This document shows positions 34,767-40,460 of a stretch of DNA of 64,000 bases, piece after piece. The position numbers and the translations under genes were made by a program. The stretch's first letter is position 1. Each line of letters begins with the position of its first letter. The DNA comes from Brumimicrobium glaciale (GTDB taxonomy: Bacteria; Bacteroidota; Bacteroidia; Flavobacteriales_D; Crocinitomicaceae). The stretch is from NCBI RefSeq assembly GCF_004152935.1, contig NZ_SETE01000003.1, forward strand, positions 186,001 to 250,000. The letters run 5' to 3'. Below the pieces are notes generated by a model that worked only from the letters and a program-made list of their open reading frames with translations, searched no databases and was not told the DNA's origin.

Positions 34767-36992
<2,226 letters not shown>

Positions 36993-37082: not shown

Positions 37083-37123
37083 AAAACACCTCGTGGATTC
37101 AGTTCTGCGGGGTGTTTTTTTTT
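37083..37123 (+). terminator. icd rho-independent terminator
   Basis: AAAACACCTCG pairs with CGGGGTGTTTT (one G-T pair), 14-nt loop, followed by further T residues. Confidence 0.8.
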
Positions 37124-37142
37124 GGTAGGAAGCTTTTTTAAT

Positions 37143-38181
37143 CGTTAAAAACGGCTATTCATGAACTCTTGAGTTTACTAAGTTGAAGAGGTGATAAAGA
37201 ATCCTTGAACTACTAAAATCTCTGACAATTCAGAAGCTCTTATTCTCACGCTTTCACTAACGGTTAAAAACGACTAGCGTTAAAACCTTAATTCCACAGA
37301 GATACAGAGGATGATATCACTAGAAAACCGCTAAAAATCATAACCGATAGTGGTGAATTTTCATTAACCGTTAAAAACGGCTATTCATGAACCGTTGATT
37401 TCGTTGAGTTGAACAAGAGATAAAAAACCCTTGAATGACGGAAATCTCTGACAAATCACAAACGACTATTCTCTAATTTCTGCTAACGGTTAAAAACGAC
37501 TAGCGTTAAAACCTTAATTCCACAGAGATACAGAGGATGATATCACTAGAAAACCGCTAAAAATCATAACCGATAGTGGTGAATTTTCATTAACCGTTAA
37601 AAACGGCTATTCAAGAACCGTTGATTTCATTGAGTTGATCAAGAGATAAAAAACCCCTGAATGACGGAAATTTCTAACAAATCACAAACGGCTATTCTTT
37701 AATCTCTGCTAACGGTTAAAAACGACTAGCGCTCAAACCCTAATTCTACAGAGATACAGAGGATAATATCACTCGAAAACCGCTAAAAATTATAACCGAT
37801 AGTGGTGAGTTTTCATTAACCGTTAAAAACGGCTATTCAAGAACCGTTGATTTCATTGAGTTGATCAAGAGATAAAAAACCCCTGAATGACGGAAATTTC
37901 TGACAAATAACAAACGACTATTCTTTAATCTCTGCTAACGGTTAAAAACGACTAGCGTTAAAACCCAAATTCTACAGAGATACAGAGGATGATATCACTA
38001 GAAAACCGCTAAAAATCATAACCGATAGTGGTGAATTTTCATTATCCATTAAAAACGGATATTCATGAACCGTTGATTTCATTGAGTTGAACAAGAGAAA
38101 AAAAACCCTGAATGACGGAAATTTCTAACAAATCACAAACGGCTATTCTCTAAATTCTGTTAACGGTTAAAAACGACTAAT
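37143..38181. repeat. 226-bp tandem array, about 4.6 units
   Basis: Motif A (CGTTAAAAACGGCTATTCA or variant) occurs at 37143, 37369, 37595, 37821 and 38047, each exactly 226 bp apart. Motif B (CGGTTAAAAACGACTAGCG or variant) occurs at 37261, 37487, 37713, 37939 and 38164 (226, 226, 226, 225). So the array is A-B-A-B-A-B-A-B-A-b. The first B half is identical to the second over 108 bp; the first A half is strongly diverged. Each unit contains CCGTT-AAA-AACGG and ACCGCTA...TAGTGGT hairpins. 226 is not a multiple of three and I see no continuous frame. It fills most of the gene-free spacer 36993-38254. Confidence 0.92.
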
Positions 38182-38254: not shown

Positions 38255-39001
38255 CTAGAACAAAGAAATACTAACCCCCATAGAAATAGGAGTTAAATCA
38301 GCACTTCCACTATCAGTAAACAATGGTGAGAAATAATATGCACCATAAATTGCCCAATTACGAATTCCAATTCTCACTGTTGCACCATACCTTAATGGAT
38401 TGGAGTCAGCGAAATTGTATTGTTTTGTCGAGTAGTTTTTTCCATCAACACGATTAGTTTCTTTTGAGTAAGCGTTTAATTGATAACCGATTTTACCTCC
38501 AATCATAAACTTGAAATGACTGTGTCCTTTGGTTCTAAATCTTAATTCTAACGGGATTTCGATGTAATTAGCTCCAAACTTTGAACTTTTTGGTTCTAAA
38601 CCCACTGGGAAATCAGAAGTTAAAGTGGTTTTATTCACTAAATCTCTAAAAAATTGTAAGTTACTTTTATTACTGTAATGACTATAGCCAACTCCCCAAC
38701 CAAAGCTCATTGTGTTTCCTTTGGTCAAAACGACATCAAACATTAAGGCAGCATTGAAGCCAATTGAAGTTGGTGGACTTGCAAAATAATCTTTGTCACC
38801 ATACCAATCATTATAAACTACATCCAATATTAGGCGATCGTATTTATGGAGTTTCCCTTCTTCAAAAGGTTTTAATCCACTGTAGAACCATCCAATTCCA
38901 GGACGAAATCTAGAATACAATCCTTCATTTTCTACCTCATATTGAGCAGAAAGTGAAGAAGAATATATAAAAAGTACAAGTATTAAACTAAATCTTATCA
39001 T
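38255..39001 (-). CDS. Outer-membrane beta-barrel protein
   Basis: 248 residues. Signal peptide (MIRFSLILVLFIYSSSLSA), then alternating polar/aromatic strands (SIGFNAALMFDVVL, MSFGWGVGYSHYS, HFKFMIGGKIGYQLNAYS) ending in a strand with a terminal Phe, the signature for barrel assembly. Resembles small outer-membrane proteins of Bacteroidota; ligand unknown. Its start overlaps the galE stop by 4 bp, so it is translationally coupled to galE. Confidence 0.75.
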   Translation of the reverse strand: MIRFSLILVLFIYSSSLSAQYEVENEGLYSRFRPGIGWFYSGLKPFEEGKLHKYDRLILDVVYNDWYGDKDYFASPPTSIGFNAALMFDVVLTKGNTMSFGWGVGYSHYSNKSNLQFFRDLVNKTTLTSDFPVGLEPKSSKFGANYIEIPLELRFRTKGHSHFKFMIGGKIGYQLNAYSKETNRVDGKNYSTKQYNFADSNPLRYGATVRIGIRNWAIYGAYYFSPLFTDSGSADLTPISMGVSISLF

Positions 39002-40097: not shown

Positions 40098-40460
40098 TTA
40101 CTCAACATCTTCCATTTCTACAATATGAATTTGATTGTCAAAAGACGTCTTATATCCAACTTCATAAACCATTGTATATCTATCTCCTGATGGAGCATTA
40201 AACAAATGGGTGTGAAAACGTGAATTAAAACCATGCGCTTCAAGAATTGTTAGTGGAATCGCTGAACTTCTGTAGACTTTAAAAAGGTCTTTTAAAATTA
40301 CGCGGTTCTTTTGAAGCGTTTTATTCAAATTAATAACTGTGTGGTTAGCGTTACGGTATTCTTCGTTGTGAAATTGATTTTTACAAGCGACTGAACAAAA
40401 TTTCTTGTTCCTTCTTCCTTCAAATTCTTCCTGACAACTAGGACAGTTTTTTAAACTCAT
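40098..40460 (-). CDS. Small zinc-ribbon protein, function unknown
   Basis: 120 residues from the ATG at 40460 (MSLKNCPSCQEEF). Two Cys pairs, CPSC and FCSVACKNQF, form an N-terminal zinc ribbon like those in flavobacterial DUF proteins that resemble FCS or MYM-type fingers. The C-terminal part (RFHTHLFNAPSG, YTMVYEVGYKTS) is not recognised. An in-frame upstream ATG (40529) would add 23 residues crossing the divergent gene's promoter, so the shorter form is preferred. Cytoplasmic; a nucleic-acid role is only suggested by the zinc ribbon. Confidence 0.7.
   Translation of the reverse strand: MSLKNCPSCQEEFEGRRNKKFCSVACKNQFHNEEYRNANHTVINLNKTLQKNRVILKDLFKVYRSSAIPLTILEAHGFNSRFHTHLFNAPSGDRYTMVYEVGYKTSFDNQIHIVEMEDVE

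Follow-up and report, generated by a model that had tools for sequence, protein, structure and literature searches.

The spacer downstream of icd in Brumimicrobium glaciale carries a tandem array of 226-bp units, and the question raised by this locus is what such an array represents: the initial annotation, which covered the same window (i.e. the whole stretch of 64,000 nucleotides that was analysed), proposed either an array of protein-binding sites or repeated small RNA units. Analysis with TRF delineated the array at 91% matches (Table 1), and the positions of the core sequence bore out the regular spacing first described, with the A motifs being 226 bp apart four times and the B motifs 226, 226, 226 and 225 bp apart. 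Each 226-bp unit is composite, comprising a 119-bp and a 107-bp part that have diverged from each other and that each contain a single core. The reported identity of the first and second B halves was found to extend across the whole half, the identical run measuring 131 bp (37257–37387), and the first A half is indeed strongly diverged, displaying 74% identity to the second A half as compared to 92–93% for A halves 3 and 4. The array starts directly behind a terminator-like stem-loop 3' of icd and ends before a convergent gene, as was originally noted, and no open reading frame of 60 aa or more is present inside it according to the ORF list of the window. It is unlikely that the array is an assembly artefact, because its units are not identical and arrays of this core are also found on other contigs; nor is it a product of chance.

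Table 1. Coordinates of the icd-spacer array, its cores and its neighbours in the window.
Feature	Position	Strand	Description
icd, left neighbour	34770..36992	+	name from the initial annotation; kept in 10/10 genus genomes searched
Terminator-like stem-loop 3' of icd	37083..37118	+	predicted from sequence
Tandem array	37138..38179	+	period 226 bp, 4.6 copies; core at both edges
A core 1, diverged, TAATCGTTAAAAACGGCTA	37139..37157	+	core positions
B core 1, TAACGGTTAAAAACGACTA	37258..37276	+	core match
A core 2, TAACCGTTAAAAACGGCTA	37365..37383	+	core match
B core 2	37484..37502	+	core match
A core 3	37591..37609	+	core match
B core 3	37710..37728	+	core match
A core 4	37817..37835	+	core match
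B core 4	37936..37954	+	core match
A core 5, diverged	38043..38061	+	core positions
B core 5, array end	38161..38179	+	core match
Convergent gene, right neighbour	38255..39001	-	ORF
Class H zinc-ribbon gene, without site upstream	40098..40460	-	related to class A; probably outside the system

The 19-bp core (TAACSGTTAAAAACGRCTA) also makes three more arrays of ~108-bp units and some small arrays in the same genome. A search with one unit returned 43 matches, 38 of which lie outside the icd-spacer array, and identified the three further arrays with ~108-bp spacing, two on contig C4 and one on C6; compared with 226 bp in the icd spacer, unit length at other loci of this genome is ~108 bp. Searches with the core (AACGGTTAAAAACGRCTA, up to three mismatches) yielded 41 + 36 matches (12 + 7 when the core was reversed as a control), and additionally led to small arrays on contigs C1, C2 and C5; at zero or one mismatch, 49 matches were obtained. 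When units were compared, with the two halves of the icd-spacer unit taken as two groups, identity was 80–95% inside a unit group and 53–67% across groups, and the core was the sole long conserved block between the groups, 17 of its 19 positions agreeing across all five group consensuses. The 9-mer TAACSGTTA alone was not enriched genome-wide (99 places versus 125 for the reversed control), and the signal therefore resides in the longer core and in arrays of it. A different, ACGCAGAGATACGCAGAG-like repeat was observed near one of the arrays in this genome (L021:793-937), and a repeat of this kind fills the icd spacer of another species (G003; L069, downstream of icd).

The initial annotation had named absence of the unit from all relatives as an outcome that would speak against its proposal. 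The opposite was found: the degenerate core (up to one mismatch) is present in 27 of 240 Crocinitomicaceae genomes, although some of the single matches may be due to chance, as may a match in a Saprospiraceae MAG (L134). In Brumimicrobium mesophilum, too, the icd spacer is occupied by an array built on the same core, here with a period of 214 bp; among ten genus genomes, those of this species and B. glaciale harbour an array at icd, which is absent from the other eight. Site spacing ranges from ~99 to 226 bp in Brumimicrobium and from ~98 to 192 bp outside it, being alike within one genome in the latter case. Outside Brumimicrobium, the sites occur as singles, pairs and arrays and present a fuller palindrome, e.g. 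TAGCGGTTTCTA-ACGGA-TAGAAACCGCTA (idealised), the left half of which is mostly lost in Brumimicrobium, B. glaciale included. Arm positions 2–5 pair in 81–89% of 70 sites outside Brumimicrobium, under a picking rule that favours paired arms, and within-genus shuffles reached the observed pairing in 33, 0, 50, 7, 16 and 3 of 300 instances for positions 2 to 7, respectively; covariation of the arms, as judged from these sites, is present outside Brumimicrobium but modest. Furthermore, the palindrome is accompanied at constant distance by another conserved block (TATCACTGAG), which shows at least seven matches in 27 of the 70 sites outside Brumimicrobium versus 1.7% in shuffled flanks, the block having been picked from the very sites where it was counted, and is seen at 4 of 69 Brumimicrobium sites versus 2.3% in shuffled flanks; this block could be a second binding site. 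Twelve of 36 element loci are flanked by convergent genes (according to a rough ORF assignment, and with one locus probably double, L142 and L174 being apparently one locus entered twice), where a promoter is not expected, thus making a classical regulon an unlikely explanation.

The proposal that the array consists of repeated small RNA units or RNA hairpins draws on its location behind a terminator and on the palindromic nature of the cores. However, RNA folding of one unit, on each strand, was no better than that of shuffled sequences (z -1.05 and -0.53), an Rfam search produced no match near the gathering score, and the orientation of the element relative to the linked gene, as assessed by eye, is not constant among genera. 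The two potential hairpins per unit that had been described therefore stand as short DNA palindromes, not as RNA folds, and an array of small RNA units is highly improbable. Protein-binding sites, the other half of the original proposal, are the better supported of the two, as the core is shared by arrays at separate loci, is present in further genera and precedes the genes of one specific zinc-ribbon protein family.

A small zinc-ribbon gene is located directly 3' of several elements (among the neighbours of the 36 element loci), and a profile of seven such proteins (A1) has homologues in 225 of 240 family genomes. These homologues were sorted by eye into classes to which we gave our own labels, namely the widespread class U (CRNxYNN), class H (GRxNK) and class A (GRxDK with CKNxYH); a second profile (A2), derived from 17 class A proteins, scored class A at 120 bits or more and the next matches at 86 bits or less across 299 genomes of the order. 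In B. glaciale, the class A gene (G000:C4:408031-408378) lies apart from the icd-spacer array, and synteny at this locus is shared by three Brumimicrobium species, all of which have at least three sites upstream. Not only in the window but also in several other Brumimicrobium genomes, a class H zinc-ribbon gene is found near icd. Searches of Pfam and NCBIfam gave nothing above cut-off for five of the proteins, four of them class A, PADLOC gave no match for class A, and no significant sequence or fold match to the PDB was obtained for the zinc-ribbon proteins. PHROGs returned weak HNH-endonuclease matches on the treble clef, with a best E value of 0.006 for class A and 1.5e-6 for the class H protein of the window. 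The confidence of structure models computed from five sequences each was low to moderate (mean pLDDT 58.8 for class A and 71.0 for the class H window protein); the predicted fold combines a long helix and a small sheet with an N-terminus that would bind zinc. A phage or plasmid origin was considered and rejected, since relatives of class A were absent from viral contigs, phages and plasmids; exact matches to the core in viral contigs numbered two. The class H gene of the window was similarly rejected as the partner of the array, as the 700 bp preceding it contain no site and as species without the array likewise have class H genes close to icd.

A TAACSGWTA-type site is present within 300 bp upstream of 25 of the 29 Crocinitomicaceae class A genes, six of which had led to the family, the figure for the later ones being 19 of 23 (L184 and L213, with too little upstream sequence, are not included in the 29). 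The nearest site is 72–127 bp from the start in 22 of these 25, often with a second one further up, while the four misses comprise two genes with one-base variants (TAACGGCTA and TAACCGCTA) and two orthologues with a degenerate form only. None of 20 class H and U control genes had a site within this distance (L204, where no gene was found, being left out), the 9-mer being seen at 688 bp upstream of one class H gene when 700 bp were inspected. Similarly, none of four divergent homologues in G143 had a site upstream (L217 and L220, in which the gene is unclear, being left out), and 9-mers within 400 bp downstream of class A genes were observed in 4 of 31 cases. In another family (f4), one of two class A genes possesses a site, located 41 bp upstream in G056, and the other, in G271, a variant; a pattern made from the G056 site matches one place in that genome, which is upstream of the class A gene. 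When 395 genomes of the phylum were searched by protein profile alone, class A was detected in seven, B. glaciale included, and the six other genomes hold seven class A genes (two of them identical copies); six of these are preceded by a site, and the remaining one by a close variant (TAACCGTTTC). The class A gene of G581 additionally has an upstream tandem array with a period of 199 bp and 94% identity (6.2 copies in the longer stretch, 5.3 in the shorter one). Counting all class A genes, 32 of 38 have a site, or 28 of 33 after clustering at 90% identity, the start of the L262 gene being uncertain. The Bacteroidota -7 box has the form TAnnTTTG, and among 26 genes with the exact site, two (L192 and L238) have it in the interval from site to start, as does L237, which has a variant.

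At genome level, the core was found in all 11 class A genomes and in 4 of 106 genomes without class A (117 family genomes listed; p = 1.6e-12, with kinship ignored), on the basis of hand-read lists in which some weak matches were counted as positive. Thus, G134 is core-positive by one match with one mismatch, and G002 by three matches, two of which resemble coding sequence (the array preceding class A in this genome does not conform to the core pattern); G003 is among the four genomes through coding-like matches. The matches to CAACGGATATAAACGGCTA and TAACGGATATAAACGGCTA in G002 and G003 (four) resemble conserved coding sequence by eye and were still counted. The correspondence also holds inside genera: in g10, the genomes with class A and those with the motif are the same three (G090, G092 and G099). 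These findings bear on the suggestion that the array is neutral satellite DNA, i.e. functionless repeats produced by unequal exchange, whose core is conserved only because exchange occurs there. Such an origin is compatible with the eight genus genomes that have no array at icd and with copy numbers and unit lengths that differ by species; however, it leaves unexplained both the genome-level co-occurrence and the fact that class A genes of other families are preceded by this core, and is regarded as quite unlikely.

Outside Crocinitomicaceae, seven of the eight class A genes (all but that of G581) are divergent with a tyrosine recombinase gene, six of the recombinases being confirmed by Pfam PF00589 and the seventh (G786) by translation only. 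Six class A/recombinase spacers contain the exact site in five cases and a variant in one. At two of 20 recombinase loci (L282 in G009 and L283 in G002), the gene divergent from the tyrosine recombinase encodes a further zinc-ribbon class, and the spacer contains repeated TATACG palindromes, which would fit a distinct site for every recombinase/zinc-ribbon pair. Contigs C1 and C2 of G007 carry twelve tyrosine recombinase matches (308–314 bits), nine of them without stops, which amounts to a multi-copy family. The palindrome may be read as the site of the tyrosine recombinase, with class A as an accessory or directionality factor and the arrays as gene-less cassettes generated by site-specific recombination. 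The divergent gene pairs and their site-bearing spacers favour this reading, as do array edges that fall at sites, on both sides in the case of G581 (see below). A tie between site and recombinase is additionally suggested by G009, a genome without class A, in which a TAACGGTTA-centred palindrome (TATATATGTAACGGTTACATATATTATA) lies 27 bp behind the recombinase gene (L282:2655-2663). However, no recombinase was seen by eye among the listed neighbours of ten Crocinitomicaceae class A loci, that of B. glaciale included, and a related recombinase (>280 bits) occurs in 6 of 11 class A genomes versus 8 of 15 others in Crocinitomicaceae; as this shows no correlation with class A, the recombinase was rejected as a general partner in this family. 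Moreover, G017 and G090 hold arrays or pairs without the related recombinase, and the 9-mer is missing from the fetched stretch at 18 of 20 recombinase loci, the remaining two being the G009 locus and one with a 9-mer ~950 bp before the gene. Homologous exchange of paired sites would give the same edges, and a recombinase site is considered unlikely as the explanation of the array.

The edges of the arrays are informative with respect to their growth. Across 11 arrays, 14 of 22 edges are no more than 18 bp away from a site, compared with 3.9 expected by random phase, and none of 20,000 simulations was as high; the left edge of L280, which has a site variant outside the pattern, was entered as a miss. 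Both edges are at a site in the icd-spacer array and in the G581 array. Exchange between neighbouring sites, be it homologous or site-specific, predicts edges at sites. Erosion sparing a selected core would likewise draw edges towards sites, but erosion alone is disfavoured because of the high identity within the G581 array. One possible, though doubtful, scenario is that of an undescribed Bacteroidota module in which a palindromic site lies between a zinc-ribbon protein and the tyrosine recombinase divergent from it; in Crocinitomicaceae the sites would have escaped from the module, multiplying as site-bounded tandem arrays through recombination at these sites, and of the two proteins only the zinc-ribbon one would have been kept as the binding partner.

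Comparison with known systems identified partial likenesses. REP sequences associated with RAYT proteins are outlined as short palindromes dispersed intergenically as singles, pairs and tandem clusters, and tied to a small gene (PMC3733652). The present element resembles such REPtrons in its dispersed intergenic copies and linked gene, which would be compatible with mobilisation by a RAYT (Y1) transposase, as in REP/BIME repeats; however, the protein linked to REPtrons is an HUH/Y1 transposase and here it is a zinc-ribbon protein, with the present sites upstream of the gene and rarely downstream. Additionally, Y1 does not track the motif: Y1_Tnp (PF01797) matches were found in 28 of 34 genomes but not in the motif-rich G017 (99% complete), and none of the nine Y1 matches in B. 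glaciale is within 5 kb of an array, so that the link was rejected and mobilisation by RAYT is extremely improbable. Direct repeats of the heptamer TAACTGA are described in intergenic regions of Beggiatoaceae, Cyanobacteria and some Bacteroidetes, with longer arrays in several Bacteroidetes, and were suggested to act as a post-transcriptional site near start codons (PMC4679880). These are likewise short intergenic repeats in arrays, but they are heptamers of another sequence, and the abstract of that publication makes no mention of a zinc-ribbon gene (PMC4679880). The dif site, which is stated to occur once per chromosome (PMC3025954), shares with the present element an imperfect palindrome of ~28–29 bp; with 49 core matches at zero or one mismatch, a dif/XerCD reading is not supported.

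CRISPR arrays have unique spacers, whereas here the spacers are repeated too, at the identity found inside unit groups. Autoregulated DNA-binding proteins, such as those of iterons and partition sites, possess multi-site operators upstream of their own gene. The repeated sites 5' of the linked gene are reminiscent of these operators, but here they are ~100–230 bp apart and arrays are also present at other chromosomal loci. Integron attC arrays comprise regularly spaced sites with gene cassettes between them and a divergent integrase. Regular site spacing and, in other families, a divergent tyrosine recombinase constitute the likeness to integrons, while the units here have no ORF of 60 aa, the palindrome is ~29 bp and arrays also occur without the related recombinase; no integrase was seen by eye among the listed neighbours of the B. 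glaciale class A gene. In titles and abstract beginnings of openly licensed literature, no published description of the element was found among the matches listed.

With moderate confidence, we consider that the icd-spacer array is probably a string of candidate binding sites for the class A treble-clef (zinc-ribbon) protein, derived from the site upstream of the gene for this protein and grown by recombination. The direct basis is formed by the array and its sister arrays, the conservation of the core, its link to class A across families and the array edges at sites; from these we infer binding by class A, autoregulation, the mode of growth and any benefit of the dispersed arrays. In the ancestral state, the site would serve as an operator in front of the class A gene, through which the protein probably controls its own transcription, and sites would have become paired in Crocinitomicaceae. 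Unequal recombination between neighbouring sites would then expand pairs to tandem arrays with a site at each end, and copies would have spread to other intergenic spacers, that of icd among them, where the dispersed arrays may serve as extra predicted sites that titrate, anchor or spread the class A protein.

An anonymous intergenic satellite is hereby tied to one specific, unnamed protein family by cross-family evidence, and the function of the repeat becomes testable with one small protein and one site of ~29 bp. If binding holds, this would represent another system of a repeat plus its cognate protein beside REP/RAYT, and would furthermore provide a handle on the recombinase-linked zinc-ribbon proteins.
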